Part shown: in pieces, positions 22,528 to 41,758 of the stretch | How the letters are laid out: every line of letters starts with the position of its first letter | Numbering within the stretch: the first letter of the stretch is position 1 | From: Fragilaria crotonensis | Taxonomy: Eukaryota > Bacillariophyta > Fragilariophyceae > Fragilariales > Fragilariaceae | Direction of reading: 5' to 3' | Assembly: GCA_022925895.1 (NCBI GenBank) | Contig: JAKSYS010000212.1 | Location: forward strand, 23,763-87,762 | DNA: 64,000 bases | Program-made: the position numbers and the translations under genes | The notes under the pieces: generated by a model | The model's input: the letters and a program-made list of their open reading frames with translations, nothing else | Database searches by the model: none | What the model was told of the DNA's origin: nothing

Positions 22528-24497
22528 TCACGAAGCATCAACATCATTATCCTTCCAAGGCTTTGCCTCTTTCAGTGAACCATAGATGAAGCCAGTATCA
22601 AAGTCCAAGACACATTTGTGTGTCTTGAATCGCTTCGAAACTTGTTGGATGTCTGAGTACGACAGAAGCGCGGGATCGTCACATGACGTTGAAAATGCAG
22701 GGATGCTTGCGTTTGCATGATCCTGTTGCCTTCTCTGTTGAGACTGCTGATATATATGGTGGTAAGTACAAATATAAGCGCGTGCTCGTGCTGCAAACTT
22801 TTCCATTCTTCCTTGAGTCAACTCATTGATGGGACAAGTTGAATCTCTCACACATTGTTTAAAATTCTCTCGTCCCCGCTTTTTAGAAAGAGGAATACGC
22901 CGGTAGAATGCCTTCGCGTGTCCCCAACTAAATTCAACGCCTTCCCCAGCCAATTCGGCGTGAAACTTTGGAGTCAGAAGAACCTGCACTCCAAGCTGTG
23001 ATCCCAGATGCTGCAGGGCAGTCTCTTCATTCTTGAAATCCGAACATTCAGACGACATTATTCTGCGAAGCGATAACTGTAAGTCAAACTTTCCCGAAAT
23101 GACATCTTTCTTCCCTTCCAATGTGTACTTGTCTGAAATTGATGGATCGCTCTAACAGACCTCTTTCGTGCAGAACTTGTAGTAGACCTTGAGCTTTTCC
23201 TTGCCACCCAGGTAGGAGTTCTTTGTCAACCTGGTTGGCGGTCTCAATTCCGTTTTCTCTTGCCAATCCCTGGAGCTCTGCTTTCGGGTATCCCCGTTTC
23301 TGTTGGAGCGTCACACCCCTATCATTGAGTTCTTGGAGAAGTATCTTCTTCGTCTTCTCAACCATCTTACTTTTCTCTGTGGTTCTATCATGCCGTTGTA
23401 ATTCTCTTTGCTCTGGTGATAAGTACCAAGGGCCGTCATCGTCATTTTTGAAGACCATTGATTGGACATCGCCAACAGACAGTGACGGTGAGTGTGAACC
23501 GAGATAACCCTCTTGTGATGCTATGCACGTGTCTCTCATTTGTTGCTGTGATCCTACTCCTCCAAAGTTCTTTGACATGCTGAGGGCATTGAGTGCGCCG
23601 TCGCGTCTGCGAGCATGGCCTTGAGAATGATCGAATAGGAACACGAAATCGAAGGTGGCGTACAAAACTCGTACGCAATCGATGATATCCTCAAACTGTA
23701 AGCTCATATGATATGAGTTCCAATATCCTTCATTGTTGATACCAATGAACAAGGATTTTACAAACGGTGATTCCTTTAAAGTGGGTTTCCTCGTTGTTCC
23801 CAATATTTCCATTGCAGCAATTGTGTCTCGGTAAGTCCCGCTACCAAGTGCTGTCGTTTGCCTTCTCATATTGACTTCTGCTAACTCGTCTTCTGTCATC
23901 TGTCTTCCAAATCCAATCTCACGGGATACAAATGCAGAAAGGCATGTACCCGTCACCCTCAGACTTCGGCAAGAGTGCCACCTGTCCCCTCGGTCCCATC
24001 CATTGTTTCGACGACATGAGGTATTGCGAAAAGACTGATTCGTCTTGACCAATTATCATGAGTGGCCTTATTGACGTTGGTTTTTGAATGCTGGTTGTTG
24101 CTTCAATTTCCCGATGTGGCAGTGTCTCTTCTGAAGACTTGAGTCTTGCAAGGCAGCTTCTCCAGTAGTCAACATGAAACTCAACGCGTGATTCATTAGA
24201 TATAATATCAAAATAGTGGTGTCCAATATCCGCGTCCAATGTTTTCATCGTTGCAGCTTCACTCAGGGGAACCTGTATCCAGCGCCGACAATAGGGCTCA
24301 AGCATGGTAAGGTAATTCTTGCAGAACGAGTGTCGATGTGCCACAACATCCTCGCATTCGTGTCCGTCAACATAATAGCTTTTTCTTCGATTGTTGTAGT
24401 CGAAGCCTAGCAGTCGCATCCATCGCCACGATGTTGCGAAGCTAAAGTTCTTAAGTCTATGTGCACGAAGAAATAACGAAACCACATCATTGTCTTC
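22528..24497 (-). pseudogene. DDE-superfamily transposase, 3' part of a split and decayed element
   Basis: Three overlapping minus-strand frames (24485-23919, 24052-23084, 23121-22528) read in succession as one transposase. First frame: SYYVDGHECEDVVAHRHSFC and the first acidic catalytic motif LMIIGQDESVFSQY, then GPRGQVALLPKSEGDGYM. A one-base shift near 23945 continues as LSAFVSREIGFG. The second frame holds the second catalytic Asp in FVFLFDHSQGHARR, followed by ALNALSMSKNFGG, and later MRDTCIA and VQSMVF. After another shift near 23090 the third frame holds LLTPKFHAELAGEGVEFSWG with the third catalytic Glu. These motifs match a DDE transposase family found in fungi and algae. The 5' part of the same gene lies at 40540-41758, on the far side of the inserted LINE. 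Frameshifts make it inactive. Confidence 0.75.
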
Positions 24498-24498
24498 A
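24482..24498. repeat. target-site duplication of the LINE, right copy in transposase sense
   Basis: CCACATCATTGTCTTC (16 bases, 17 with the following A) recurs at 40524-40540. On the coding strand it encodes EDNDV at the break in the transposase, and the reading on either side joins as NEDNDV then VSLFLRAHRL. Confidence 0.9.
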
Positions 24499-24640
24499 AT
24501 AAAATAAAATATGAACTAATTATTAATGGGTTTTCACCATGTACCGGCCGGTAGGCCGCTACTGTGTACCCAGTTCCAGCGGGAATCCGCGAGAAGAATA
24601 AAATCAAAATAAATTCAAATTATTGGGACTGAACCGTGAC

Positions 24641-25336
24641 TCAACCACTCGATCTGCGAAAAAAATTTGTAAGCAAGGTCTGCCGTGTACCATCTTTAGT
24701 GAGGTCCGCCGAGGATTGTTTGACCTTTCGTAACCATCGACGCCTCGTGGCTGGTGTGCCCGACAGGATGGATGATAGAGGTCGGTCGCAGTAGTGTTTG
24801 TCCCCAGTACGAAGTAGGTGAGGCCGGCTATGATAGTACTCTATTTCCACCGACTCCGCGGATCGAATGCTTGCAAGAATAGCGTCGTTTGGAGAGTGTA
24901 GTACTCCGTTCCGAGAAATCCACAGGCGTCGAAAATGCGCACTCAATGCGCTAATAATCTCCTTCATGCGTGTTTCTCCCTTTCGGATGTCTCGAGCGTT
25001 GCCATGCATATCATACTGGGCCATCCGACCCCATTCCTTGGCAAAATAACCCTTCAGCGAGTTGTCCCACCCGATCTGACGTTGATTGGTCAGTGCGTCA
25101 GAGATGAGGTCTTGGAAGTGGAGTGGGAATTGGGTGAATGTGGGAGAATAATGTGTTTCCGATTGGATCGTGTGGCAAAAACCATCAGCCAGGAGATATC
25201 GAACTGGATGGATGTCGCTCGTGACAATGTCAGACCGTAACGTAGCAAGACTGGACTGCAGTACTGGGTTGGAAGTGCACCGAATAAAATGGAAGGAAGT
25301 CTCGTCTGAGGCTTGGCAGCAAGGGCAGAGTTTCAA
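24641..25336 (-). CDS. LINE ORF2, C-terminal fragment downstream of the copia insertion
   Basis: This is the continuation of ORF2 after the copia element. Across the insertion the frame joins exactly (ATIKDDS to LKLCPCCQ) when the copia and one copy of its CGAAT duplication are removed. It starts with a putative zinc motif CPCCQASDETSFHFIRC, followed by about 200 helical, Arg-rich residues. The same CPCC..HF.RC motif occurs in the LINE relic at 63.6 kb. The initiator given by an open-frame reading is not biological, because this segment is an orphan 3' piece. Confidence 0.85.
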   Translation of the reverse strand: MKLCPCCQASDETSFHFIRCTSNPVLQSSLATLRSDIVTSDIHPVRYLLADGFCHTIQSETHYSPTFTQFPLHFQDLISDALTNQRQIGWDNSLKGYFAKEWGRMAQYDMHGNARDIRKGETRMKEIISALSAHFRRLWISRNGVLHSPNDAILASIRSAESVEIEYYHSRPHLLRTGDKHYCDRPLSSILSGTPATRRRWLRKVKQSSADLTKDGTRQTLLTNFFRRSSG

Positions 25337-25341
25337 CGAAT
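25337..25341. repeat. copia target-site duplication, CGAAT
   Basis: The 5-bp direct repeat CGAAT immediately outside the LTR is matched at 32592-32596. Confidence 0.93.
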
Positions 25342-25753
25342 TGTGAGACCCTCTCTAGTACGGCAGCTTCACATACGTTGGCTCGCTTGGGAGTCGAGTT
25401 AGTGCGAGACCGTCAGAAACAGAAGAGGGAGAACACGACAGCACAATGAACGGAAGAGCGGCGATATCCGACGAGGTACGCAGTGGCGAGGGTGTCGGTG
25501 ATAGTGATGTCGTGAGTTATAGATGGGGACGAAGCAACAACTGTACCTCTTCACCCTTACGATCGTAGACCGGCAAGAATGCAGTGGAGGTAATAGTTTT
25601 AGGCTAAGTTAAAGTTGTGAGCCGATGGAGTACATCGGCCTTAAGCTAAACTAGTCGGAGTTGCACATGCGTCATGCATGTCAACGACTGTAGATAGTAG
25701 ACTGTGCGCGATTAGACGATTGCACAGTAGCAAGAATGAAATATGCACTGACA
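25342..25753 (-). repeat. copia 3' LTR (412 bp)
   Basis: It starts TGTGAGACC and ends CTGACA on the plus strand, so it is TG...CA on both strands. It is identical by eye to the other LTR. Confidence 0.95.
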
Positions 25754-25755
25754 CA

Positions 25756-25762
25756 CTCCCCC
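25756..25762 (-). other. polypurine tract of the copia element
   Basis: The minus strand reads AATGGGGGAGTG directly before the 3' LTR. This is the usual place for the plus-strand primer. Confidence 0.75.
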
Positions 25763-25907
25763 ATTGTAAGCCATAGCATGCAATGAGCAACAGAAGTGTA
25801 TCTTGAAGGATAAGAACTTCAGGGGGCCGGGGGTATCCACGGGGCACCATAGTGACCCATGAGGCGGCGAACATGACGATGATGAAGCGTGGGCCCAAGC
25901 GATTTCG

Positions 25908-26420
25908 TCAGGAATCCGCGGAGTTGACGACACCAGGAATGTGAGAAAGAACAATCTCATTCGCTGCCTTCCATTCTTGGAGGGCAAAATGCTGGATGTC
26001 GATATGACGAGCGCGCGGCGTGGGACGACTCGCATTAACCATCAAGATGGCGGCAGCGTTGTCTTCGAACAACGTAGTTGGGCCGAGTTGTGCGTACCCA
26101 AGTTCTGAAAGGATCGATCGGAGGTACTTGGCAATCTTGGCGGCATGGACAGCTGCAAGGAACTCTGCTTCGGTGGAGCTTGTGGAAACGGTCGATTGAA
26201 TCTTTGACTTGTAAGCCAGAGGGCCACCGCAGAACATGAAGACGAGCCCGGTAATAGAACGACGCGTGACAAGGTCCGTTGCATGGGCTGCGTCGACGTA
26301 ACCAGCAAGTTCGGTCGAGGATTGAACTTGCGGGAAATCAGGGAGGGACGAGTCCGGAATGAGAATCTTGAAGTCGCCAGGCGGAAGTGATGAGAGAAGC
26401 ACGTTTCTCCAATAGAACAA
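25908..26420 (-). CDS. copia RNase H domain
   Basis: This is the copia-type RNase H with its acidic residues: GYVDAAHATDLVTRRSITG, STSSTEAEFLAAV (Glu), LFEDNAAAILM (Asp) and ARHIDIQHFALQEW. It follows the reverse transcriptase with a frame change near 26430. Another frame change near 25910 leads into a tail (GPRFIIVMFAASW in a second frame) before the polypurine tract. Not separately initiated; part of the broken polyprotein. Confidence 0.9.
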   Translation of the reverse strand: MFYWRNVLLSSLPPGDFKILIPDSSLPDFPQVQSSTELAGYVDAAHATDLVTRRSITGLVFMFCGGPLAYKSKIQSTVSTSSTEAEFLAAVHAAKIAKYLRSILSELGYAQLGPTTLFEDNAAAILMVNASRPTPRARHIDIQHFALQEWKAANEIVLSHIPGVVNSADS

Positions 26421-26439
26421 ACCCCAATTTTTGTCATTC

Positions 26440-27330
26440 GTAGGTACCGTGCGACACGACGTAATGCGTCGTAGTGCACCTTTGCCGGGTGATCGGAGAA
26501 ACGGGCAAGTGTCGTGACCGCGTATCCGATGTCCGGTCGAGCAACCACATAGGCGTAAATCAACGCTCCCAAGACACTTCGATACGAAAACCCAGCAGCC
26601 GTTTCAAGATCATAATATTCTGCGGTTCCGTCACGAGGTGCATTAGCGTAGTCGTCAAACATTTGTTGTGTTGTCGATGCGGCAAGTGGCTCGATGGGTT
26701 TCTCGTCCGTCTCTCGTGATCCGGATGACGACCAACCATAGTGCGCCAGCAATTTATCAATGTATGTTTCACACGTGATCTTGATGTATCGGTCGCGTTG
26801 GTCGACGTCGACACCATTGAACGAATTCAGGATACCTTCGTCGCGGAGATCGATGCCGTCTTCGGCGCAAATGACACGAACAAGGTCTTTGATGGCGTCA
26901 ACGTTCACACATCCGATGGCCATATCGTCAACTTGGCGACATATAAGCATTCGGTGTCCCTTGTAAGTTCCTTGATAGAGACTGCGCTCGTGGGTGGTCG
27001 AAGTGAAACCGTGACGAGCGATGACAGAGTTCACGAACTTTTCCCAAAGCGCTCCGGATTCTGGATGGCCTTGGAGAGCATGTTGAACAGGGAGCACCAT
27101 TTCTCGAGAGACGACCGTACCGTGACGAGCGAGATACCAGTCGGCGTATTGATCATCGATGACCACGAACGTGGGCTGATTTGGTGGCGGCGAGTTCGCA
27201 TACGCGTTCGTCGCGTCCACTTTCAGACTGACATAACCCTCATGAGCACACAGAGCAAAGAAAAGGCGCATACAAGGTTGTTCGATGCAGCTAGAATAGG
27301 TGTTAGCCAACTTGAGCTGTGGAGCTGCGC
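26440..27330 (-). CDS. copia reverse transcriptase
   Basis: This is the palm and finger motifs of a Ty1/copia reverse transcriptase: VSLKVDATNAYANS (first catalytic Asp), LPVQHALQGHPESGALWEKF, and the active-site motif ICRQVDDMAIG, where Arg-Gln replaces the usual Tyr before the Asp-Asp pair. It ends with the conserved FSYRSVLGALIYAYVVARPD and FSDHPAKVHYDALRRVARYL. The open frame itself extends from 27568 to 26042, but outside these limits it is out of register. Frame changes occur near 27310 and 26430. Confidence 0.9.
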
Positions 27331-28166
27331 GAGGATCCATCGCAGCAGTTTCTTGCTTTCCGAGAACCGTCGCCTTTGATGGCGTAGTTCCAATGTTGCC
27401 GGAGCACAATAGCATCTCTGGGAGCAGGAACAGGGGCGCCATACATTTCTTGTTTGGCCATCGAATCAAGCTGCTTGAATTCGGCGTCTTGCCATTCTTT
27501 CCAGTTTGGGAGGCGTCGGAGCTTACGTCGAGTGAAGCTCCCGAGGCTTTGTTCTTCCGGAGTCCCATGCGTCGTTGTATTCAGGGAGCGAAGGAGCAAC
27601 TGAACATGGTCATCATCGATGGTGCTGTCTTCGTTGCATGCGATACCGCCGTCAGGCAGGTTCGGTTGCGGGGAGGAGGACCGGATGGCAGAGACTGTAC
27701 GCAATTGTTCCACAGATAGATGAATCGGCTGGTCAAGATGCCGATCGACAACTGGGATATATCGGTCCGGTGCGAAAACAATCTTGAACGTTTGCTCGTC
27801 CGATGCGGCCACAACACGAAGTGCGTCCAAGATAGATGCCGCAGTGAACACGGCGACGTCATTAATGGATACAACGAAGGCGCCGATGTATTTACGGCGA
27901 ACATTTCGGATCCGCGAGGCCGTGGTATTTGCAACAACACCGGAAACATACCCTCGTCTCCGAATGTGACACTCCATGATTTCGAAACCGAGGCAGGGAT
28001 GCTCACAGGTGATGGACGGGGACAGTTCGTCAAGGCGTTCGAATGGGTCATCAGAGACTTCCAGGTTGAAGGCTGGGAGATCCAGACGGTCCGGACCGAC
28101 GACGCCGTCATCGGCAAGGTTCCGGAGGAGCTTCACATTAGGAGGCGGTTCATCTAGATCGTTCAT
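27303..28166 (-). CDS. copia integrase-RT connector and start of reverse transcriptase
   Basis: This begins with a Pro-rich linker. Near its end it holds SFTRRKLRRLPNWKEWQDAE and LRQHWNYAIKGDGSRKARNC, the fingers region typical of diatom copia polymerases, which ends CCDGSSR before the frame changes near 27310. The middle part contains a PDZ-like-sounding YIGAFVVSINDVAVF stretch of unknown role. Confidence 0.8.
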   Translation of the reverse strand: MNDLDEPPPNVKLLRNLADDGVVGPDRLDLPAFNLEVSDDPFERLDELSPSITCEHPCLGFEIMECHIRRRGYVSGVVANTTASRIRNVRRKYIGAFVVSINDVAVFTAASILDALRVVAASDEQTFKIVFAPDRYIPVVDRHLDQPIHLSVEQLRTVSAIRSSSPQPNLPDGGIACNEDSTIDDDHVQLLLRSLNTTTHGTPEEQSLGSFTRRKLRRLPNWKEWQDAEFKQLDSMAKQEMYGAPVPAPRDAIVLRQHWNYAIKGDGSRKARNCCDGSSRSSTAQVG

Positions 28167-28380
28167 GCCCTCGTCGAAACGCGCATGGGTGGCGGTTTTG
28201 ACGGTCGAGCTGCCAAGGTCGAAAGTAATACATGACCTTCAGGGAGCGCGAGTACCCGAGAAAAATACCGAGGCGGGAGTTCGGAACGACGCGACCGTAT
28301 CGAGCAGTCGTTGGACGAACGTGGATCCGACATCCAAAGGTCCGTAGCTTTGCCAGATTTGGGAGAGGGGCACCACACAT
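28150..28380 (-). CDS. copia integrase C-terminal segment
   Basis: NLAKLRTFGCRIHVRP and LGIFLGYSRSLKVMYYF form the conserved segment after the integrase core of copia elements. It lies in a different frame from both the core (ending near 28385) and the connector (starting near 28166), so it marks two frame changes. Confidence 0.85.
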   Translation of the reverse strand: MCGAPLPNLAKLRTFGCRIHVRPTTARYGRVVPNSRLGIFLGYSRSLKVMYYFRPWQLDRQNRHPCAFRRGHERSR

Positions 28381-28384
28381 CTCG

Positions 28385-29345
28385 TATGGGCTTGTAGGTC
28401 GATCGCCGTGGGGGGGACGAAGTTATACAAGCGAATGTAGTGGTAGAATGCATACGGCCAGAAGTTGGGCTGGAGATTCGCACCGGAAAGCATGGTGCGA
28501 AGAGCATCGCCGATCGTCTGATGTGGACGCTCTCCAGGTCCATTCTGATGCGACGAATCCGGACCGGTCAGTTCCACGGCATATCCAAAGTTTGCGAAGG
28601 TGCGATGGATGTCGCGGCACTTTCCGAGCTCACCACCTCCATCCATGCGAACATACTTGTCGGGACATTGCGGGGAGTTGCTTGCAAGCCAGCTGTTGAT
28701 CCAATCGATGGGAGGTGCTTTCGTTGCGAAGGCGCGACCGAAGATTCGACCACTGAAGTGATCAGTAAGAAGGACATAACAAGTCTCTCCGTTGAGGCCG
28801 ACGAGGGTGTTGTGTCGAACTGAGTCCCGGCTCTTCTGGACCATGAAGCCAAAATCGATCGACAATCCTTGGTTACACGTTGTCGCTCTCATTGTGGTTT
28901 CGATTCCTTTTGGTGCTTTGCGGAGTTTGGCAGCAAGACAGATGGGACATCCTTCAAGTTCGGTTGGAATCTGGAATTGCGGCATCCCTTTTACAAAACG
29001 ATGCATCTCCGACAGACGACGAAAATTGATGTGCCCAAGCCGTTGGTGCCACAACATTCGCAGAGCCGTACGACTCAGGGAGCGCACGGCATATGCATCC
29101 GTGCATAAAGGCGAAGAGAGTTCCGGGAAATGAACGTCACCGTCCAGGATCGTTGGACGTTGAGCGAGGAGATCTTCTGAGCGATGGCCTTCGTGGCTTA
29201 AGCGGTCTGTGTCGATATTGACGGGGACAATGAAATCGAGACCCGCCGGAGCCATTCCTTGTCCAAAAAACGTAAGGTCTTGCGTTGCCGTCGGGTGAAG
29301 CGGGCAGCACATTAGAATTCGGGGCAGGTGGAGAATGACAGGCAT
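28385..29345 (-). CDS. copia integrase core with zinc-binding N-terminus
   Basis: The GAG-pre-integrase zinc motif is LWHQRLGHINFRRL followed by GCPICLAAKL (H-H-C-C). The catalytic core then shows SIDFGFM (first Asp), VRMDGGGELG (second Asp) and HQNGPGERPHQTIGDALR (Glu), the D-D-E triad that joins cDNA to the chromosome. After about 28385 the frame is out of register although open to 28239. The upstream frame change from the gag-protease frame lies between about 29345 and 29270. Confidence 0.92.
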
Positions 29346-31221
29346 CGCAGGTCATACCATCGATGGGATCAAGAATTGTTGCTGCGGTGACTGGTGCATG
29401 TTCGGTGCACAGTTTCCGAACGACTTGGTCCGATGGTAGCGGCGCTAAATGGGCCTCAGCTGTCGGGGCAATCAAGGCCTCAGTGAACGTCAAGCCGCCG
29501 CGGCTTGCCGTCGGTTGCAAGATGATGTGTATATCTTGCGAGCGACGAAGGCGGTGCGGAAAGTGAATGTGTCCGATGTTTTCAGAGAAGCTTGACATGT
29601 GGTAGCCATCGGTACCGAGCTGCTTTGAAATAGCTGCATGGGAAATGATGATGCCTGGAATTGTGGGAGTGTAATATGTCCGAATGAATACGGACGATGG
29701 GCCTCCGGCATTTCCACGATTATCAACCGGCACGCACAGGAAGCCGACACCGATAGGTTGATGCGCATGGTGACCGGCGTCAAAGAGGCGGACGTTGGTG
29801 CGACTGAGAGGGCGGTAGGCAAAGAGAAGCTTGCGATCGTTGGCAGTGCATGCCATCGATCCGTTGTCGGCATGCGCGAACGAGAGTTGACGTTCGCGAT
29901 CATACGTTTCAGCCAGTCGACGAAGTAGGATAGGTTCGGGAAGAACGTCGTCGATGTGAATTGTCTCTGACGCTGGAAGTGCAGGATTTGCATCAGCGAC
30001 AGGGATGGTGATGGAGTTGGTGCTGGGGACGTCGAAACATGCCTCAAAGTCGACTTCTTCAGCAGCGGTGACGCGGAGGGAATTTTGTTGGAAGCCAACT
30101 AATTCGTCTTCATCCTCGTCGTCGTCCTTGTCTTCGGTGGCAGGGACCTCAACGCCGGCCGGCTCATGTTCCAAGATGCGACGCATGGTCCGGTTGGTGG
30201 GAGGCGGTGGGCGACCACGGGTATTGGCCGAGTTCAGGCGGCTGCGAAACTGCTTGTGCGAGTTCGCGATCTGCGCCTTGAGCTGAGGATTGCGTTGTGC
30301 CAACCCTTCGGCGACAATGTAGTCAACGAAGCGATTGCAGTCCTCCAATTTATGACCTGGCAAATGGCAACCAAGACAAACAGAAGATGCATCTTGGTTC
30401 TGGGAAATGGCGCGAACCATCAGGTTGATCTCCTCGTCGTCGAGGGTCGCTTCGGACATGGACGACGAGAAGTCAGGCGACGCGGTTTCAATGCGTCGGA
30501 TGATGGACGTCGGCGTCCTTCCCGTTGACGACTGCTGCGAGGACGGTGGGTCGCGGCCGATTTCGGATGCATACTCGACGAACGTCGTTGCGAGTTGCGC
30601 CAACGAGAGTTTGAACGGAAGCGCACCATCGTGTCCAGTGCGCTTATCGCGTTCGACTAAACGTCGGATCTCGGGACGCCATTCGGACGTCAGATTGCGG
30701 ACCGAAAGGTCGAGAGCCTCTGATTCGGTGTACGTGCGAGTGGCTTGACGCTCGCGCACCATGAAGTCTTGAAGCCGACGGATGTACAAACTGAATGGTT
30801 CGGTACGACGCTGGCGAGGGATTTCGCTAGCAGTTGAGAACACTGAATGGAGAAGGGGATGATGTAGGCGGAACAATGAATACACCACGTGATATCCTGC
30901 TTGGGGAGGGCAGCCTTCAACGGCGCTCTGTTCTCGTGAACCATTCGGGAAGGTTGATTCTTGAGTGAGGGCGGTGTAGATTAACCCCGACATGAATGAG
31001 TCCTTCTCGCGGACGGACGCAGGAAGCCAAAGCCACCATTTTCCATGAATCGAATCCTCTTGTGCCGATTCATATGGTGGGCACCACACTCCCCATTGAA
31101 GGCAAGTGGAGCAAAATAATTTGTACCAATGAACGAATGAATCGTTTTGGACGAATCGAATTTTGGAATGCTCGCTTTTCGGAAGTCTTTGAACTTTACC
31201 TCGCCACACATGAATTGGCAC
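29137..31221 (-). CDS. copia gag with zinc knuckle, and protease
   Basis: Gag sequence here includes PFSLYIRRLQDFMVRERQ and a CCHC zinc knuckle CLGCHLPGHKLEDC (CX2CX4HX4C), which binds retroelement RNA. An acidic DEDEDE stretch follows. The retropepsin-like active site reads FAHADNGSMACTANDRKLL, with DNGS where DSGA/T is usual. The first about 30 codons (31221-31100) are probably out of register with the gag frame at 30981-31658, and the last about 60 codons (after 29320) are out of register with integrase. Confidence 0.85.
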   Translation of the reverse strand: MPIHVWRGKVQRLPKSEHSKIRFVQNDSFVHWYKLFCSTCLQWGVWCPPYESAQEDSIHGKWWLWLPASVREKDSFMSGLIYTALTQESTFPNGSREQSAVEGCPPQAGYHVVYSLFRLHHPLLHSVFSTASEIPRQRRTEPFSLYIRRLQDFMVRERQATRTYTESEALDLSVRNLTSEWRPEIRRLVERDKRTGHDGALPFKLSLAQLATTFVEYASEIGRDPPSSQQSSTGRTPTSIIRRIETASPDFSSSMSEATLDDEEINLMVRAISQNQDASSVCLGCHLPGHKLEDCNRFVDYIVAEGLAQRNPQLKAQIANSHKQFRSRLNSANTRGRPPPPTNRTMRRILEHEPAGVEVPATEDKDDDEDEDELVGFQQNSLRVTAAEEVDFEACFDVPSTNSITIPVADANPALPASETIHIDDVLPEPILLRRLAETYDRERQLSFAHADNGSMACTANDRKLLFAYRPLSRTNVRLFDAGHHAHQPIGVGFLCVPVDNRGNAGGPSSVFIRTYYTPTIPGIIISHAAISKQLGTDGYHMSSFSENIGHIHFPHRLRRSQDIHIILQPTASRGGLTFTEALIAPTAEAHLAPLPSDQVVRKLCTEHAPVTAATILDPIDGMTCDACHSPPAPNSNVLPASPDGNARPYVFWTRNGSGGSRFHCPRQYRHRPLKPRRPSLRRSPRSTSNDPGR

Positions 31222-31658
31222 ATGTAATCTTCAAAAGATTCGGCACCGAAGGTCACTTCGGCTGAAAAAGGGTGCATGCGAGTAGGCGTACGGGTCAACG
31301 TTCCCGTACGATTTGTCGCTGCGGAATTGAATAACGGGCGAGGCGGGACCGCGTCGGGTGGACTCTGAAAGCGATCAGCGGCCATTGGTGGCCCGTGGCC
31401 ACCGGTGGGTCGGGTATCGACCGGTTGTCCTCGAAAGGTCGGGACGGTGATGACAGGATCGTCGCTAGTATCGACGTTGACACTTGGCGGGGGATGATCT
31501 TCTTCCGTGGTAGCGGGAACAGGTGGCGTGTCGACATGTACGGATGTGTCGATTACCGATGGCGGCCCTCCTCGTCGGGAGTGCCGGGAACGGCTCTCGT
31601 GTACGCTATCGGAAGCAACCGAGGATCCTGGTGGTTTCGGAATGTCGATCGCAGACAT
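30981..31658 (-). CDS. copia gag, proline-rich and capsid-like part
   Basis: The N-terminal 125 codons are Pro/Thr/Ser-rich. Capsid-like sequence follows (FEDYMCQFMCGEVKFKDFRK, then KTIHSFIGTNYFAPLAFNGE). The frame change to the next gag segment lies near 31090. Upstream, another frame (31670-32020) may supply the true N-terminus. Confidence 0.7.
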   Translation of the reverse strand: MSAIDIPKPPGSSVASDSVHESRSRHSRRGGPPSVIDTSVHVDTPPVPATTEEDHPPPSVNVDTSDDPVITVPTFRGQPVDTRPTGGHGPPMAADRFQSPPDAVPPRPLFNSAATNRTGTLTRTPTRMHPFSAEVTFGAESFEDYMCQFMCGEVKFKDFRKASIPKFDSSKTIHSFIGTNYFAPLAFNGECGAHHMNRHKRIRFMENGGFGFLRPSARRTHSCRG

Positions 31659-31669
31659 AAGAAAACGGA

Positions 31670-32020
31670 TCAGGACAGGGACATGGACGAGGTCCGAAGG
31701 ACGAGCGATCTTTGAGGCGCTGGTTGATCAAGCGCTGCAATGCAGGCTTTCAACGAGATGATGTGATTGCGATCACGGGCGTGATACATGCCGAAACCAG
31801 AGTCCGTCAGCAAAGGTATCAAATCCTCCGAGAGCCAGGTGGTATCTTGGAGTTGTTGGAGGACCGAATCGCGGATCACGTCGTGGTAGTTGTCAAGAAG
31901 TGTCTTCGTAAGGACGTTGAAGACTTCTGTGAGTGGGATTTCCGCCATTGGGCAGTCCACAATGTCGATGGTGACAACGAGACAGTCATCATCGTGCCGG
32001 AGCTCCCCTGCGTCTGACAT
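31670..32020 (-). CDS. probable copia gag N-terminus
   Basis: This is 116 codons in the element leader, starting at an ATG about 140 bases inside the 5' LTR. It has good protein composition (LTEVFNVLTKTLLDNYHDVI, TTWLSEDLIPLLTDSG) but no recognised domain. It ends just before the Pro-rich gag frame and could be its N-terminus after one frame change, or an independent small protein. Confidence 0.5.
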   Translation of the reverse strand: MSDAGELRHDDDCLVVTIDIVDCPMAEIPLTEVFNVLTKTLLDNYHDVIRDSVLQQLQDTTWLSEDLIPLLTDSGFGMYHARDRNHIISLKACIAALDQPAPQRSLVLRTSSMSLS

Positions 32021-32162
32021 GTTAATATCAGGTCTTCAGAAATATGCGGTCCTGGATGGATGATTCCGAATCGGAGTGGTAACGTGGTTCTTGGTATCGT
32101 ACGACACAAAGAACACGAGAGAACGCAGACTTATTCGGAGTGGCGCAGAATTCAATCGTATA

Positions 32163-32591: not shown

Positions 32592-32596
32592 CGAAT
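32592..32596. repeat. copia target-site duplication, CGAAT
   Basis: This is the partner of 25337-25341. Confidence 0.93.
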
Positions 32597-34099
32597 CATC
32601 CTTTATGGTGGCCTCGCGGTGACGGCGCTCCCCTAAGGGGAGTAGATCATGAACAAACTTGAAATGCTGAACCCGATGATGTGGTCGAAGACGTTTGAAG
32701 TGCTTACCAAAGGTGTGGAAGTCAATTGAATCCCAGGTCTTATTGTCCCAGTCGTGGCGATGTTGAACATATTGGCGCTGATGATATCCATTGACATGAA
32801 AGCGGATGCAGTCATTGTATTGACTCGTGACTGGGATACCGTTTATGTAGATCGAAACTTGTTGATTCGAGCTGTGGTCGATTGTTTCGATCGCGCGAAG
32901 GCGGCCATGTTGTCGATATCGAGTTGCGAGAAAGTCTGCATCAATATTTAAACGAGCGGACAAAGGCAACCTATCGTACGCCATAGAGTTATCTTGGTGT
33001 GCCTTGACCCATCGAGGTTTAAATGGACGCTTGAGGTCTCTTAGGCGCGATGAAATAATGGACAAGAGATCGGAATCGGGGGGCATGCGAGTGGGACGAT
33101 GTCCTCGGCCGCAGAATTTGTGAAAACGGCTGATCGCGGAAGTGCTATCAGTGTACCAACGGAACGAACAACGGTGACGAATACCCCAGAAACCGGAGAG
33201 AGATGAGAGGAATAATAGTGACGACGCGCATCCACCGAGCTCACTTCTTGTCGATGAGTTTGTATCGATGGGACCGTCGACCGGTCCCGAGCATTGATAA
33301 AGCACCTCTTTACCCGAGCTCAGTACCCAACCGTGGGTAGCTGACATTTCACCAAGTCCGCCGTCGGATGCCAGATGTAACCGAGCTTTCGAACGGAAGG
33401 CCCTCCAGATTTTTATGTCGGAGCTCATTTGCTCCAAGCCATCGAGTAATCGTCGTTCAGTTCGTGAAAGTACAGTAGAGAGATATTCGTCGAAAGACTC
33501 CATGTCATTGACAGGTGTGCTGGGCTCGTGGGACATCGCAGTTTGTGAAGGTTTTGAAACCGGGGTTTTCTTCCAGTATGGAATGTAGCGGAGAAAGGAC
33601 GACGAGATGAAGCGTTTCCACAAGCGGACCTGAGCTTTGGATGGTTGGAGTTGGCGGGGCCATGTGTCTGACATTTGAAACCCATCCGGACGTTTGGCAT
33701 CAAGATAGGACAAAAGAATTCGGTTCGGACGCTCTGGATCAGACATCTCGGCGAGCGTCGTAACTTGGAGCCAAGTTCGAACTAGATTTAGATCGAGTTG
33801 TTGAGCAGGACTGTAGCGCTGGAGATGGGAGGCATTCATTATATATTCATCCGTCGGTCCCTGGAGCTGGTCATTGTGGATATCTGACACTTTAATTGAC
33901 ATATTGTGGTTGGCAAGAAATTGGCGAATGGATAAAATCCACGATGGGGTCAAGTATGATATGTGTTTCCGCGGTTCCTCGAGCAAGTAGAATCCAACTC
34001 CGGCCTCTCGTTGAGAGTATTGTAGATTTAGACGTATAAGATTTCCCGCTTCTGAGTCGCTGTACAAGGAGTTTCGGAGAAATTTAATAGCTTCTATCC
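32597..34099 (-). CDS. LINE ORF2, RNase H part, cut by the copia insertion
   Basis: This is continuous with ORF2 upstream except for a single missing base near 34097: RTEAG in one frame continues as IEAIKFLRNSLYSDSEAGN in the next. RNase H motifs: LHLASDGGLGEMSATHGW (first Asp), SSTRSELGGCASSL (Glu), FRWYTDSTSAISRF (Asp) and WVKAHQDNSMAYDRLP. A basic C-terminal region leads up to the copia target site at 32592. The open frame runs a further 15 codons into the LTR before a stop, which is an artefact of the insertion. Confidence 0.85.
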
Positions 34100-37000
34100 C
34101 GCTTCGGTGCGTAGGTCATAAAGACCCAACCCTCCAAGTTCTGTGGGACCATGGCGGAGTGACGTCGGAATCGTGCTGCTCAGATGGAATTTTTGAAGCA
34201 TAGACTTGATGACATTGGTCTGTACAGACGCCAGAGATTCTTCGTCAACCGCTATAGCAGCCAAGCTATAACGCATAGATGGGATGTATATGGATCGGTG
34301 GAAGATGGCGACGTCTGTTTCCGTTAGTCGCGGGGAAAGAATACTGCGGGAGAAGTCGTCCGCCTTTTTCTTCAACATGTGTAGGTGATCCGAAAAGTCG
34401 CCCATCGGGTTGAGGTATACGCCCAACATGCGGGATGATTGCTGCAGACCGTTCCTCTTGATAGTAGTTGTTGTCGTAGACTCACCCTGGGTGAGAGCGA
34501 TTGTGGGATCGTCTTGTTGTATTTTTCTGATGACTGGTCGTCCGTTTTTCCATTCCCAGCGGAGGACATACCATGAGCACTTAGTGAGATTTAACTTGCC
34601 ACCGGAAAGCGATAAAAGCTTCTCCCAGGTTTGGGCTGTCTCTTCGAGACGAGCGATGAGATCAGTGAAACTTGTGTCGTCGCTTGAGGTGAAGCCGACA
34701 GAGGTGTCATCAACAAAAGCATCAGAGGATCGTGAATGCCTCCTCGCGCCAGAAACGGGTACAAAATTCATTCTGTGAGGTATCAGACGATCGAAGGTAT
34801 GAAGAAGAAGAACCACAAGGGTAAGCCAGACAGCTGGAGAAGCGCCGCTTCCTTGTCCGGTACCAAACAGAGGAGCAAATGGTGTCCCTTGGTAGTTGGC
34901 TTCAGAAATCCCATGAATGGTTTTAACTGTATACTGCATAAATTGGAGTGCCTCAGCGTGAAGTCGGATGGCGTTACGTGGCATACCGCACCTTCTAGCC
35001 GCGAGCATTCCGAGGGCAACGATGATTCGATCGTAGCACGCAGACGCATCATTGTCGAAACGAGCGAGGTCGTGTTTGAGAATCCTACACAAGTCTGAGG
35101 TAAGGTGAGTGAGCATTATAGGATCCATCGCAGTACGCCGGGGTATCGAGCCGTGTTGAGAGTCGTGTAGTAGATCCAACGAGACGGCATGACGTACTAG
35201 CCTGTGGCCCCACTGTAGCTTGAGGAAGAAGTTGTAATCTGCTTCGAAGAGATGGATGATGCGTAGTCGATGTATCTTGGGCGAGCCCACATCTTTTTCA
35301 ATCATGACATTTGTAGCCTGGCACCAGCGGGGAATAGCGATGCCACGGGATACAGCGATATTCATAAACTGCACGAAACATTTCAGTAGTACAGGGTGTT
35401 GAATAATAGCCTTGTAGTGTCCAAGATGGCGCCCCGACGGAGAGGTTGACGTACGCTCCTTCCATGCTTTGAATCCTCGAAGCACATCATCTTCCGATAT
35501 ATCCGTTGGGATTTCGCCATGATTGATAACCGTCGACGGGATGACAAAGGAAGCGAGGAATTCCCGGAGATAATTGTCGTGAGAAACCCAGTGAGGCGGT
35601 ACATTTCCAGCGAGTAATTCTTCAGAAGCCGGAGAGAGGCTAGTAAACGTAAGTGCATCATGAATGACCCCATGGCCGCACGGGGAAGAAGATGCTGCTC
35701 TGAATGAGTCGCGGTTGTATTCGAGCAGGTGACGATCTATCTCTTCCCGAGTAACGATTGTTTCCCACAGGATATCTTCGCTGGGAGTGTCTTGAGTTAT
35801 TTGATACGCCGAATAGGTGTCTATATCCAGGGCCGAAGTGGTTGAGGGAACGATGACTTTCGAGAGCCCAGACTGCTCTGATGGGCGGACAATCTTTCGA
35901 ATATTCCCAAACACGTGTCGGATACTTTCACCAGTTATAGTCGTCTGGACAATCTTTGCTTTGCGTCTTGACTCCTCTTTGGTAGCGGGATTTGTATCCT
36001 CTTGGTAGGTCTCCAATAGCTCTTGATAGGTGTGTAGCCGGAGTGGAACAGATTGTTTTTGAATACGACGAAATTCCCTGTTGGCTCGGTTCAAAGACAA
36101 ACGGATCTGATCAATCGATAAGCTCTGTCCCAATGATGGGAGTCGGAAGGCCGGATCATTCGTTTGAATTTCCATTTGCCATCGACAGAAGGTCGTTGCA
36201 TAATTTTCGTCTCGTAGTTTCTCTCGTAGGCGAAGAAGCCAGTACCTGCGTAGTATAGCTGAGTTCCGCAATGTCGGCGACCAGGCACACTTCTGAGGAG
36301 GGCGTCGTAAAGTCCTTTCGCCGAGTTCCATGGCCCGTCCTTGGTCGTTGTCCCATTTGATGAGTGCCGAACGAATTTCGTCGCGATCCATGGAGTCCCG
36401 TACATCATAAAGATGTTGAATTCGTTCTATCATCCGATGTTGAGCATAATAAGATAGCATAGCATTATGGTACGTCGTAACCTTTTCTGGATTACCTGTG
36501 TAAAGATCCCGTGATTGCAGGGAATTTATGGACTGCCAAGGAGGAGTTGTCATGAATTCCGGAGAAAGATCTACATACAAGCTTCGGTGGTCGGATTGAG
36601 GTCCCTCTGTGTACGCCAGAGATCCACTGCGAATAACATGCCGTCGAGCATCTGCACAGCCAAATATGAAATCAATACGGCGATGAGCCGAACCAATGAA
36701 GGTTGAGGGAGGCGGATCATGGGAATGTAAATCCTGGAGACCGCATCTCGCAAGTACATCCGTGAGCTGTTTGTCGTCCAGAGTTGAATTTGCATCAAGC
36801 ATGAGAATAGTACTGTAACCCGATTCCTGGAGGTCCAAGATGACTTTCTGAAGGTCGACAAAGAAAAGTCTTCTTGGATTTGGTGATGGGTGGTTGTGTT
36901 CTCTGAAAAATTCGTATTCCCGAAGAAACGAACTTCCAATGGGAGAGGTTTGTGGAGAGCCTGAGCAAACTCTGTACGCAGTGATGATGGATAATTTTTT

Positions 37001-37520
37001 GTTATCGGGACCTGCCAGTTTGACGCCGCTCCATCGACCCAATCCAGTAGCATCCAAAATATCCGAACCATCAACTCGAGATGCGAGAGAACCAAGAATA
37101 CTCGTGAGATTGCCTCCAGATTGGAATGATTCTGACTGTAGACATTTATCAATGTCCGTAGAGACCATTCCAAACACAGTTTTGCTTTGACGAACATATC
37201 GACGTAAGGTTGAGCGGAAATCAGACGACAAGTGATGATGGGACCAACATGTATTTGTTTCAGATAATCCCATAATGTCCACATCGAGGCCCTGCAAACA
37301 CTTTAGGTAATAGTTGTAGTCTTCTTTGGTGGAAGTGTAGGTAAGACCCTTCACGTTTTGAAAAAAGAGCCTGATCGATCCGGTGGGCTTTTGTATCACT
37401 GGATCGCCATAGGAGACCGAGGGTGCCGGGTCAATGCTTGTATGACGTGGTTGGCGTCCGGGTCGGGTGGAGGGGATAGAAAGCAAACGGGAAACTGGGA
37501 CGAGGGAATAGAAGGATCAA
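34094..37520 (-). CDS. LINE ORF2, endonuclease and reverse transcriptase
   Basis: This is an open frame of over 1,130 codons. An apurinic-type endonuclease comes first: IRLFFQNVKGL, DIMGLSETN, ILMLDANSTLDD, STFIGSAHRRIDFIFG and GPQSDHRSLYVDL. Reverse transcriptase follows: LARFDNDASACYDRI (first catalytic Asp), LFGTGQGSGASPAVW and the active site SSDAFVDDTSVGF. Together they nick the target and copy the RNA in place. No ATG precedes the endonuclease motifs in this frame; it opens after a TGA near 37521, 37 bases past the ORF1 stop. A non-AUG start, reinitiation or frameshifting must therefore be used. The frame breaks by one base near 34097. Confidence 0.92.
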
Positions 37521-37556
37521 TGGGCTGTCGGCGGGAAACTCGTGGCGTTCGGACTG

Positions 37557-40430
37557 CTATGGTTGCGATGCCCGACGATGAGAGGGGGTTGCATTTGTGT
37601 CCTTATCTTCTTGATTTGGTGGACTTGCTGTGTATTGACTCTCAGGGTCAGGGTTATCGTTTTCAGCAACAGATGATGCTGTGTTGCTCTTATTGGCTTG
37701 AGCGATGTGTTCCAGTTGTAGCATTGCTTCATCGAGAGAGTCGAGGGACCCTTGCGAGGAGTTGGTTGGTGGCGAGGAGACAGGCTGATTTGCTTCTTCC
37801 ATGGCCCGGGCGAGCTGGCGACGGACAGGGTCATTGGATGGCTTCTGACCTGACTTAAGGCGTTTGTGTTCAGGCGACTGAATGGCGCTTAGGGATTCGG
37901 AAGACATCGAGGAGCGAGAGGAGCTGGAGTTGGAATGAGATGCACAATTCACTTGTTCCTCGTCGAGATGATGGGTATGAGGGCGAGCGACAATACCAGT
38001 GTCCAACGAGGGATCGATCGGGTCAGAGACACTCATCGGATCCAGTGTAGAGTTGTTGCTGGGATTTCCACTGTGTGTCAACAGGCGATTGACAACAAGC
38101 ATCAGTTTCTCAAGGCTTGTATTCATGTTTTCCATGTTGTGATGTGAGGACTCGATGTGACCCTTTACCGTTTCAACCATGCGAGACTCGAAAATAGTTA
38201 GCCTTTGCCCAAAATCCGTTTGTACTTCATCCAGTTTGGTATCGATATCGTCGATCCGATGGAGTTTCCGTTCGATATGGGAAAGCCGCTCAGAATTTTT
38301 GGCATCCTGCTTTTCATTGGTTTTCTTTTGCCGTTGGATGGCAACATCAAGTTCTCTTAGCTTAGCAGAACTGGTGGACATGCGGCCATCGCTCAACTTT
38401 GAAGGAGAAGTAACCGTTGATCCTGCAGTGGAAGAATCATCAGACTGCTGGTCGCCAGAAGAATCCGATTTGTGACGTCGTTGACTGTATTGTTGGCGGA
38501 GTGATTCAGCGGAAGTAAGAGGACGCGTGATCTGACTAACGGACGATGAATCTGTAATACCAGATTCCGGGGTGGTGACCGAACATTGTTCCACTTCCGA
38601 ATCTTTGGATGTAGGAGAGGGTGAGGACGAATGTTTGGTTGCCGATAAACGTTTGATGAAATCCAAGTTTGCAATAACACTTTTGCTGAATTGGATGTAG
38701 GGAGGAGGACCGACGTTTTCGCGGAATTGAGCTTCGCGCTGCGTGAACGGATAAAGACGTCTGCGGTAGTCTTCTAGGGCCAAGGTTGCAGCTTCGGTGT
38801 ATGGTGGTGTAAACAAGAGGTATGGCAATTGGTCCAGACCACCATTAACAACGTCACACTGAGCAGATGATTTCCCGTCAAGATCTTTGATGCTCCTAGC
38901 CCATTCTCGGGTGGTGCGTTCAATGAAACTTCCATCTGGTTGGTACTCTTTGCGAGGTCGGTCCAAATTCGAGAGAAGAGGGGAGAGGGGTAGCCAACGA
39001 AGGGATTTAACATACTCGTCGTGGGTTTGGAACAAAGCGTGCGCTTCTGAGTCCGTCATCTGGGAGAAGGCAAACCGAGGGATGTAGAGAGCCGAGCTTT
39101 CACCAGTTAAAATAGAAGCTAATGCTTCGCTGAGAGCATGAACATTCTTGTTGCCACACTGTACCGCCAGGTGTGGAATTTGTTGGTCCAGGGGAGTACG
39201 TTTATGGAGGAGAATGTCAAAAGGGGACGTAGATTGTGGTAGCATCAGTCGAAGACTCTGCAGATACCTAAGACGGTGCGTTGTCATAGGAGCTTTGAGT
39301 AGAATATAGCCGGCAACAACCAATTTTCCGCTGATACTTGTGCAATTGGAGAACGAGACAGTAACATCATGTTTGTCGAGTTTTTCCTTTGTGGTCTCAA
39401 GATTCCTCCATTTACTGGGGTTTGTGCTGGAGAATCCGAAACGAATAGGGATAACAATCATCGATTTGGAAGGTATGATTCCAATAGAGGGACAGATATA
39501 CTGACGAACTTCGTCTGGAGACATTTTGGAGATGGAGTTATTCACATCAGTTCCAGAGTGTTGCCATTTGTATAGAAAGCCATCATCGTCATCGAAAAGG
39601 TCATCCAGGAGCTTATAAATCTCCTCCTTCAGTTGCTGAGTATTGCGCGAGAGTTGATTAACGTCAAGAGGTACCTTCCAGCGCAGAGTAACTCGATGGG
39701 TGCCATCACATACAGGGACGTTGAGAGTAGGAATCAACGCGGACTGTTTGCCATCTGAAGCAGCTGATTGTTCGTCGCGATCCGAAGGGCGTTTTTGTCC
39801 TCTGGACACCGTGGAAGTGCTAGCTTTGGATGTCTCCTCAACAATAGTGCCTGGTTTGGAACGGTTTGAGAGGAGAGATGATGCCGTGACAAAAGTCTTT
39901 GTAGGATTGGCTTTTTTGAGCTTGTTCGACTTAGATGGAACTTCAGACCACGGATTGGAAAGAGATTGGGTTCGAGAGAACTCTTTCCAGGTAGTGATGT
40001 TGGTGTCAAGTTTGAAGGCGGAATCAGCATGCTTTGCCAAGTAAGGTTGTGATCTCGTCGCTCCCCAGGCTTGGAGCTTGGGAGGTATGTCTATCTTTTG
40101 ATCAAGATGATAGGCATACTGATACCAGACGAGACAATGCATCTTGAGAGGATCGATAACACCGTCTTCCATGATTGAGTCGAACGTGAAACCATCTACG
40201 ACATAACGGCCAAGAGTAATGTAACGGTGCCACAAGGTAGGAGTGGTGGAGTCACGATATTCTTTTTCGGTCATTTCGCGAATGTTGGATTCTGGCGTTG
40301 TTTCAGGGAGCGTTGTCACGTAAACTGGAGGATCAATCCAGGTAGAGGTGTCAAAGTCGAAAATGGGATCATGTGGAGGAGTTGGGGAGTCGAAGGGGAG
40401 AGCGACGGCTGGTGCCGACTTGTCGATCAT
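37557..40430 (-). CDS. LINE ORF1 (RNA-binding or gag-like), 957 residues
   Basis: The start is the ATG at 40430 in the strong context CTCACCATG; the open frame reaches 40454 without another ATG. The N-terminal half includes LWHRYITLGRYVVDGFTFDS and IPPKLQAWGATRSQPYL, which recur in decayed form at 58.3-60.2 kb, so this is a family signature. Around residue 580 it has YPFTQREAQFRENVGPPPY. A Lys/Glu/Gln-rich coiled coil lies at about 690-790 (HIERKLHRIDDIDTKL), and the C-terminus is Ser/Asn-rich. No CCHC knuckle is seen. In LINEs, ORF1 proteins trimerise through such coiled coils and bind the element RNA. At over 950 residues it is large for an ORF1. It is uninterrupted. Confidence 0.85.
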   Translation of the reverse strand: MIDKSAPAVALPFDSPTPPHDPIFDFDTSTWIDPPVYVTTLPETTPESNIREMTEKEYRDSTTPTLWHRYITLGRYVVDGFTFDSIMEDGVIDPLKMHCLVWYQYAYHLDQKIDIPPKLQAWGATRSQPYLAKHADSAFKLDTNITTWKEFSRTQSLSNPWSEVPSKSNKLKKANPTKTFVTASSLLSNRSKPGTIVEETSKASTSTVSRGQKRPSDRDEQSAASDGKQSALIPTLNVPVCDGTHRVTLRWKVPLDVNQLSRNTQQLKEEIYKLLDDLFDDDDGFLYKWQHSGTDVNNSISKMSPDEVRQYICPSIGIIPSKSMIVIPIRFGFSSTNPSKWRNLETTKEKLDKHDVTVSFSNCTSISGKLVVAGYILLKAPMTTHRLRYLQSLRLMLPQSTSPFDILLHKRTPLDQQIPHLAVQCGNKNVHALSEALASILTGESSALYIPRFAFSQMTDSEAHALFQTHDEYVKSLRWLPLSPLLSNLDRPRKEYQPDGSFIERTTREWARSIKDLDGKSSAQCDVVNGGLDQLPYLLFTPPYTEAATLALEDYRRRLYPFTQREAQFRENVGPPPYIQFSKSVIANLDFIKRLSATKHSSSPSPTSKDSEVEQCSVTTPESGITDSSSVSQITRPLTSAESLRQQYSQRRHKSDSSGDQQSDDSSTAGSTVTSPSKLSDGRMSTSSAKLRELDVAIQRQKKTNEKQDAKNSERLSHIERKLHRIDDIDTKLDEVQTDFGQRLTIFESRMVETVKGHIESSHHNMENMNTSLEKLMLVVNRLLTHSGNPSNNSTLDPMSVSDPIDPSLDTGIVARPHTHHLDEEQVNCASHSNSSSSRSSMSSESLSAIQSPEHKRLKSGQKPSNDPVRRQLARAMEEANQPVSSPPTNSSQGSLDSLDEAMLQLEHIAQANKSNTASSVAENDNPDPESQYTASPPNQEDKDTNATPSHRRASQP

Positions 40431-40523
40431 GGTGAGTTTCAACGAAAACACCACGTTGGAAGAATACTAAGGGACGGACGACGGACAGAACGTAGTTTCG
40501 AAAACTTAGACTGTGAAAAGTGT

Positions 40524-40540
40524 CCACATCATTGTCTTCA
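40524..40540. repeat. target-site duplication of the LINE, left copy in transposase sense
   Basis: This is the same 16-17 bases as at 24482-24498. On the minus strand the transposase reads TTGANEDNDV up to this point. Confidence 0.9.
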
Positions 40541-41758
40541 TTTGCACCGGTGGTAGAGTTGTTGCTACTAGATGGTGTACTCATAGTAGTAGCAGCATTG
40601 TCAAGTGATTCCTTTATCCACAAAGCTGCAAGTCTCGGGACAACTGTCGAAAGAATGAACTGATACACTGCTTTGATTGATAGATGCGCTAGGTTCTTCA
40701 AACCGAATGAAACAATCTGCTCCTTTGTACAGGGATACACTTCGAGAAGTCGAGGGAGTGGTTGCTTTTCACACTGAACCGACAGATTTGGGTGCGGGAA
40801 GCTTTCGTACTTCCTGAATGCAATGCTCCAATTCGATACTGTTTTATAGAAGATTGCTTGCTTCATCCCGAAGGAATTCAAAAGCTGACAAGCTCTTGAA
40901 CAACAGTCTTGCCATGTCCACTCATTCATTTTTCAAGCGCCAACTGGTAGGCATAGCAAAGAAGTGTTGCTCGTTGCCGAATTTCCCAGATCTCGGCCTT
41001 GGTGCATACATCGTTGTCATCGCGACCAACTACAACGTTTCTCAATTATCTTCCCTCTCGTGAACACTTTGAAGCAACAGGATTCGCCTCTGGACCGCTT
41101 CCATTGGAGTTTCAGAATCAAGATCATCAATGCAGTCAATTTTGCAGTTGTTGTTAAGCCGAGTACAAGTTTTCTTCGGTTTGAACAGTTGGTATGCTTC
41201 AGGACTGCAGGGCCAGTACAAGCCTGATAGTAGACCAACAGAAGTAGAATCAACAAGCAGCTCATCATCTTGATCCCCTACCCTCGGCCGTTTGTTTGGA
41301 GATTCTGTCTCAACAGCATCTTGTCCTTCAGTGTTTTGTCCGATGTCGATAGCAGCCGTAGTCGTCACATCGGGAGCAGCTCAGCACGATCTAGTACTTG
41401 GAATGACTAGCACATTTGATGGTGCTGCTTCCATTACCTTGTCCCTCCATGCACTGTTGAGGGGAAATGGGTACCGAACCTGCCTTGATTCTTCAGTGAA
41501 ATAGTAAAAGAAGGTCTTTTGAAACGTAATTCTGAATACACCCATCATATTGGATCCATCAAATTGATGGATTGCTACTCCAAACAACAAGGGGGACTTG
41601 GACATGGCACTGTTGAACTTTCTCACATCAATGGTGAGGGAAACATCAATGAGGTTCAATTTGGTTAATGCTTCAACGAGCGAATGTTGATGCTGGGAGC
41701 CAGCAATTTGATAATCTTGGTCCGTACGTGATGTCCAATCGCATGAGCATGATAGCAC
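40540..41758 (-). pseudogene. DDE-superfamily transposase, 5' part of the split element
   Basis: The minus strand upstream of the LINE reads EIWEIRQRATLLCYAYQLAL, then after a one-base shift near 40928 MNEWTWQDCCSRACQLLN, WSIAFRKYESFPHPNLSVQC, and LKNLAHLSIKAVYQFILSTV. This is the N-terminal region that precedes SWRWMRLLGF in the same transposase family, whose remainder is at 22528-24497. Further upstream, two frames in register (41758-41381 and 41368-41042) are separated by a TGA at 41379-41381. They contain SPNKRPRVGDQDDEL (nuclear-signal-like) and may be the true N-terminus or another gene. At least two frame breaks and one stop make it a relic older than the LINE. Confidence 0.7.

Follow-up and report, generated by a model that had tools for sequence, protein, structure and literature searches.

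A three-level nest of transposable elements in the genome of the diatom Fragilaria crotonensis

Architecture of the locus

The window analyzed here is a stretch of 64,000 nucleotides of Fragilaria crotonensis DNA and is part of contig JAKSYS010000212.1 (C128 in our numbering; other contigs of the same genome are cited in the same way). The assembly comprises 62.1 Mb in 881 contigs. The window contains a nest of three transposable elements: a DNA transposon holds a long interspersed nuclear element (LINE), which in turn holds a Ty1/copia-type long terminal repeat (LTR) retrotransposon. An initial annotation, made from the sequence alone, had described such a nest with one coding strand for all three elements. 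Both points were borne out; all three elements are coded on the minus strand, and the target duplications, the in-frame joins, and uninterrupted paralogs each support the three levels. The extent had been given as 22528-41758. The locus was right, but the transposon is longer and extends on both sides of that interval (Table 1). Structurally, the nest is nothing out of the ordinary; it is readable, it was correctly observed, and chance is no reasonable alternative to it.

The LINE is flanked on both sides by TGAAGACAATGATGTGG (coding strand). A duplication of 16-17 bases had been annotated, and it measures 17; the annotated 16-mer occurs at these two places alone when the window is searched on both strands. 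CGAAT was found on both sides of the copia element, as described. The annotation had proposed deleting the inner elements in silico as a check. With the copia element deleted, the LINE join ...EATIKDDSLKLCPCCQASDE... translates in one frame, and with the LINE deleted, the transposase join ...GANEDNDVVSLFLRAHRL... does so as well. The sole repeat of at least 30 bases found in 21000-43000 is the pair of copia LTRs, whose reported identity was confirmed by alignment (412/412 bases). The LINE measures 8,770 bases after removal of the copia element and one CGAAT, and the transposon about 3.59 kb after removal of the LINE and one copy of the 17-base duplication.

Table 1. Features of the nested locus (window coordinates).
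Feature	Position	Strand	Remarks
DNA transposon, level 1	22400..42032	-	C477/C220 homology ends on both sides
TA beside transposon, left	22398..22399		at end of C477/C220 homology
TA beside transposon, right	42033..42034		at end of C477/C220 homology
Transposase gene, 5' part from first ATG (41792)	40541..41792	-	frame-changing indels relative to C477 near 41683, 41043, 40933
Transposase gene, 3' part	22528..24481	-	two frame-changing insertions relative to C477
LINE, full length, level 2	24499..40523	-	5' start in common with C775, C299; 3' tail in common with C775, C299, C628
LINE target duplication, copy 1 (17 bases)	40524..40540
LINE target duplication, copy 2 (17 bases)	24482..24498
LINE open reading frame (ORF) 1, 969 amino acids	37557..40466	-	no Pfam match
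LINE ORF2, endonuclease-like and reverse transcriptase part	34094..37516	-	RVT_1 E 3.8e-5, Exo_endo_phos E 0.02; both below curated cut-off
LINE ORF2, continued past one-base shift near 34100	32597..34115	-	RNase H-like motifs by eye only; no Pfam match
LINE ORF2, C-terminal part past copia element	24641..25341	-	LKLCPCC... finger-like motif by eye
LINE 3' tail	24499..24573	-	conserved hairpin, then ATAATTAGTTCA, short TTTTA repeat
Ty1/copia-type LTR retrotransposon, level 3, 7,250 bases	25342..32591	-
Copia 5' LTR, 412 bases	32180..32591	-	TG...CA
Copia 3' LTR	25342..25753	-	identical to 5' LTR
Copia target duplication CGAAT, copy 1	32592..32596
Copia target duplication CGAAT, copy 2	25337..25341
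Copia gag-pre-integrase stretch	28239..29351	-	gag_pre-integrs 2.1e-9, above cut-off
Copia reverse transcriptase stretch	26042..27580	-	RVT_2 3.6e-14, 53.4 bits against cut-off of 31.6

Uninterrupted copies and the order of insertion

In the two nearest paralogs of the transposon, on contigs C477 and C220, the transposase gene is uninterrupted, the LINE is absent, and the 17 bases are present once. The relatives assembled from C42, C493, C108, C23, and C802 also cross the LINE site without the 16 kb insert. Near-identical copies of the LINE that cover the copia site are found on C775, C299, and C628, while a copy on C4 comprises the 5' part only. All three copies covering the site lack the copia element and contain CGAAT once; this count refers to near-identical copies and leaves out diverged relatives (75% and less). 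The order of insertion given in the initial annotation, transposon before LINE before copia element, is supported by containment and empty sites, and decay is not its basis. The copia element is innermost and therefore the youngest of the three.

Contig C4 matches window positions 39031-43366, comprising the right flank and the 5' part of the LINE, at 99.4%, with differences that are mostly indels. It is also colinear at 56500-57500, a repeat-rich stretch in which the match drops to 92%. C4 is probably the other haplotype of the locus.

We consider it almost certain that the three elements inserted in turn, the transposon at a TA, the LINE into the transposase gene, and the copia element into ORF2 of the LINE. 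A cut-and-paste transposon of about 3.6 kb with Tc1/mariner-like ends would have entered a TA and duplicated it. A full-length LINE would then have entered the transposase gene, creating the 17-base duplication, presumably through target-primed reverse transcription as known for such families. A target duplication is the expected product of this process. Finally, a Ty1/copia-type element would have integrated in ORF2 of the LINE with a 5-base duplication, probably through the action of an integrase. Each insertion breaks the gene that was entered, so neither outer element can support its own movement.

Containment alone, with the LINE target duplication enclosing everything, is also compatible with a compound unit, in which the copia element first entered a source LINE and the resulting 16 kb unit was then retrotransposed into the transposase gene. 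However, none of the three other LINE copies covering the site contains the copia element. In general, the RNA of a LINE with a broken ORF2 needs the help of another copy, and in this case the RNA would have to be read through two LTRs. We regard the compound unit as very improbable. The assembly is fragmented, and near-identical copies differ by many indels of 1-2 bases, as might be expected if the nest were an assembly chimera joining unrelated loci; but the target duplications are exact, the reading frames are restored at both joins, and in C4 this right flank again runs into the LINE 5' end. We regard a chimera as extremely improbable.

Several observations count against three successive insertions at this locus. 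C4 ends in the LINE near window position 36499, short of the copia site. For the left flank, only diverged paralogs of the neighboring gene were found and no second contig. With a second contig sought on both sides, an allelic empty site was present on no contig. The transposase family is also without a significant profile match, as detailed below. Because C4 stops before the copia site and the left flank has no second contig, the empty sites are paralogous and belong to other loci. The initial annotation had suggested a search for empty sites in other strains or haplotypes; paralogous ones were found for both inner levels, but no allelic one.

The DNA transposon and its transposase

The terminal inverted repeats of the transposon are imperfect in the window copy (coding strand TAGCTGGTTTTG... 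and ...AAGAAACCAGCCG) as well as in C477 and C220. In a group of relatives at 73%, all four that were read (C42, C493, C108, and C23) have CAGCTGGTTTT as terminal inverted repeats. In the window copy, TA is present at both ends; the duplication of TA was demonstrated on a relative of about 3.57 kb on C188. The genome contains silicon transporter genes (PF03842 profile; best match 646 bits; 18 of 19 matches above the cut-off), indicative of a diatom host, and the C188 relative sits inside one of them (L043 and L078, C188:47244-52600). When its flanks are joined with one TA kept, 395 of 398 bases are identical to an intact gene on the same contig, without gaps. The family therefore duplicates TA, a habit of Tc1/mariner elements. 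A target duplication of 7-8 bases, hinted at by C220 alone, was rejected, as only TA itself fits the silicon transporter join; no shared flank longer than TA was seen in the other transposon copies inspected.

On C477 the transposase gene stays open in a single frame over 1,095 codons, and on C220 it has one stop, so the gene is intronless; introns as the source of the shifts in the window copy were ruled out by the C477 frame. The family is large: a first look gave 1,134 protein candidates, 42 of which were scored. The intact C477 frame had no significant match in Pfam, PHROG, NCBIfam, or PDB. The best E-values, none of them significant, were 0.099 (PHROGs), 0.21 (Pfam, with C802 only), and 0.24 (PDB), and NCBIfam returned none. 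In a genome search with DDE_3, none of the six matches was above the cut-off and none fell at the family positions listed. An AlphaFold model of the transposase core (572 residues, three sequences) had a predicted local distance difference test score (pLDDT) of 36 and was unusable. A search for relatives in viral contigs gave two stretches that fit a pattern, neither of which was confirmed.

Acidic positions are invariant in three open frames, those of C477, C802 (C-terminal 881 codons), and C363; examples are the D of GQDES, the D of FDHSQGH, and the Es of AELAGEG. These may be the catalytic DDE residues, and their spacing resembles that of DDE enzymes. The initial designation as a DDE transposase is therefore plausible from the TA duplication and the acidic motifs, but neither a profile match nor a usable fold accompanies it.

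Within this family, a group of near-identical transposons (L013-L028 and L034-L048, including those on C42, C493, C108, and C23) is 99.8-99.9% identical among the four compared, and the transposase frame of its copies is broken near the same place. Since this break is shared, the copies of the group may be moved by another copy.

The LINE and its 3' hairpin

The LINE contains a reverse transcriptase (RVT_1 match below the curated cut-off) and is without LTRs. Motifs of an APE-type endonuclease were recognized by eye only, beside the weak, below-cut-off Exo_endo_phos match, and a comparison of ORF2 with PDB sequences returned no match up to an E-value of 1. The 5' boundary at 40523 is common to C775 and C299, whereas C628 ends at a contig edge before the 5' end. 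The target duplications differ among copies (17 bases in the window, 15 in C775, and 14-15 in C299). Duplication length also varies beyond these copies: at L059, a duplication of 18 bases borders a piece of 73 bases, probably a 5' truncated copy. The window LINE differs from C775 by 9 substitutions in 8,758 positions, from C299 by 11 in 8,760, and from C628 by 14 in 7,687; substitutions adjoining gaps were left out of these counts (1, 0, and 6, respectively).

LINE relatives across this genome have a covarying 3' hairpin in common. The last 102 bases of the window LINE, which include the 75-base tail, fold better than every one of 200 shuffled sequences (z -3.7). The structure tested was the window fold plus one pair, in 15 tails from this genome; the rows are related, and the counts that follow are thus not independent. 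Pairing was found in 92.1% of 240 cells, compared to 30-48% in slid controls. Cells changed on both sides numbered 15 versus 6.5 in shuffles (reached by 0 of 500), further pair types 14 versus 10.8 (2 of 500), and the covariation score was 0.217 versus 0.127 (0 of 500). Pairs altered on both sides were not unusually many (5 versus 3.8; 103 of 500). A pattern of 26 places had 26 matches in the genome, and the reversed control had none. Rfam, searched over 22000-42500, yielded no family at the gathering score. Hairpins of a similar kind at the 3' end guide LINEs of the stringent type (PMC4176376). By analogy, the hairpin described here may have the same guiding role.

In three of 19 places, the hairpin stands alone between target duplications (18 bases at L059, 14 at L064, and about 10 at L084). 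The 19 places comprise 13 in 11 of 14 loci, the other three loci having no match to the pattern, and six in six of six loci. The pieces without the remainder of a LINE, at L059 (C518), L064 (C177), and L084 (C775:98260-98570), are about 73 bases long and begin at most about 8 bases from the foot of the hairpin. Either short truncations or a minimal short interspersed nuclear element (SINE) could account for them. That the hairpin moves alone, as a minimal SINE-like element consisting of hardly more than the LINE recognition hairpin, and that the pieces are not extreme 5' truncations, appears doubtful to us. The L059 piece seemingly lies within ORF2 of another LINE, near the same CPCC motif as the copia insertion described here.

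The copia element

The gag-pre-integrase domain lies ahead of RVT_2, as in Ty1/copia elements; the integrase core (rve) gave no match in the copia stretches scanned. In the window, the gag-pol region changes frame at least four times and contains one in-frame stop. Around the reverse transcriptase, relatives on C156 and C364 (59% and 73% identity, respectively) are open in a single frame over 2,031 and 2,022 codons. Near-identical copies shift frame at different places; for instance, in C98 and C142, query residues 1-384 are in one frame, while C397 and C117 shift near residue 82. A score corresponding to a full-length identical LTR was obtained for 15 of the 40 candidates scored (159 candidates in the genome), including the two in the window. 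In two places (G000:C117:56716-70482 and C58:7697-21465), copia LTR pairs are spaced about 13.4 kb from start to start. This is about twice the 6.8 kb of the element, and these are possibly tandem or nested copies.

Decay does not date the insertions

The initial annotation held that the degree of decay tracks the order of insertion and provides a relative clock. The raw substitution distances do fall in this order: the transposase differs by 2.6% from C477 (92/3,557), the LINE copies by 0.10-0.18%, and the LTR pair by 0 in 412. One frame-changing insertion in the transposase is also common to both contigs of the locus, while the two in the left half lie outside the part covered by C4. However, distances between paralogs date the last common source of the copies and not the insertion of this copy. 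At 0.1% divergence, the level between the window LINE and C775, the probability of finding no difference in 412 bases is 0.66. The LTRs are too short at this divergence for their identity to prove that the copia element is younger than the LINE.

The frame breaks contradict the proposed order, as the copia element is more broken than the LINE, and many of the breaks are private to one copy. The LINE had been described as having one shift. A base is indeed missing near 34100, but it is present in all three other copies, and all four others have a second base that the window lacks near 37506, where the open stretch of ORF2 starts. The joined transposon has 12 internal indels relative to C477, of which seven are not multiples of three; two of these (near 41855 and 41839) are upstream of the first ATG and five are inside the gene. 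Five of the seven fall in the right half that can be read in C4. Four are single-base deletions absent from C4, two upstream of the ATG and two inside the transposase gene, and the fifth is a 4-base insertion shared with C4. C4 has its own single-base deletions inside the gene, at 40601 and 40582. The transposase, annotated as badly shifted, is thus less broken than it appears, since two of the three checkable shifts inside the gene have no counterpart in C4; at least one break is real because the 4-base insertion is shared.

Indels outnumber substitutions between near-identical LINE copies. The window copy and C775 differ by nine substitutions and about 21 gap runs, and C775 and C299 by three substitutions and about 24 gap runs. 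Ordinary mutation yields more substitutions than indels; the excess therefore suggests residual assembly error. Many of the checkable shifts are indels confined to a single assembled copy, and their number therefore gives no date for the insertions. In our assessment it is very unlikely that the three levels can be dated against one another by their decay, and the dating claim should be dropped.

Comparison with known systems

Nesting in diatoms is already known. In Phaeodactylum tricornutum, a CoDi5.3 element contains an LTR element with an ACAAG duplication, one copia-type element within another (Maumus et al. 2009; PMC2806351). The nest described here resembles it in the order of containment, the 5-base duplication, and the diatom host. 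It differs in comprising three levels, each of another class of element, in having paralogous empty sites for both inner insertions, and in showing no sign of the recombination described in that paper. The copia element agrees with the Ty1/copia elements of diatoms (CoDi groups; PMC2806351) in its TG...CA LTRs, the position of gag-pre-integrase before RVT_2, and the 5-base duplication.

Compared to stringent LINEs such as zebrafish ZfL2 (PMC4176376), the LINE is similar in its two ORFs, short repeat tail, 3' hairpin (here covarying), and target duplications (here 14-17 bases in three full copies); unlike them, it has an ORF1 of 969 amino acids without a Pfam match. The transposon shares with the IS630-Tc1-mariner group the TA target duplication, short terminal inverted repeats, and invariant acids in a DDE-like spacing, but its transposase exceeds 1,000 amino acids and has no significant profile match. 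The literature seen in part on diatom nests, diatom LINEs, Tc1 elements, and the dating of nested insertions, a body in which subscription journals are thinly covered, held nothing on this locus.

The locus is a clean example of two successive insertions proved by uninterrupted copies within one genome, and it yields exact ends and target duplications for diatom element families. It also calls for caution: where small assembly indels are many, frameshift counts can mirror the assembly more than age. By-products of the analysis are an abundant transposase family unrecognized by the profile libraries tried and the covarying 3' hairpin of the LINE relatives.

Other observations

Some silicon transporter domains appear fused in one open frame, three of them on C97 (G000:C97:29749-33762, 1,456 codons) and two at C771:21664-24330 (1,008 codons). 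Beside the nest, at window positions 20299-21534, lies a gene resembling seven-transmembrane receptors (7tm_1, E 0.0027, below the cut-off); the same contig contains a copy of it at 88% identity, 4.8 kb away, and several relatives are found on other contigs. The stretch at 54000-58000 is G-rich and strongly skewed (GC content 0.61 and skew 0.33 at 54001-56000). It also contains densely arrayed, diverged repeats, each about 80-100 bases long, that have relatives on C4, C108, C508, and C862.

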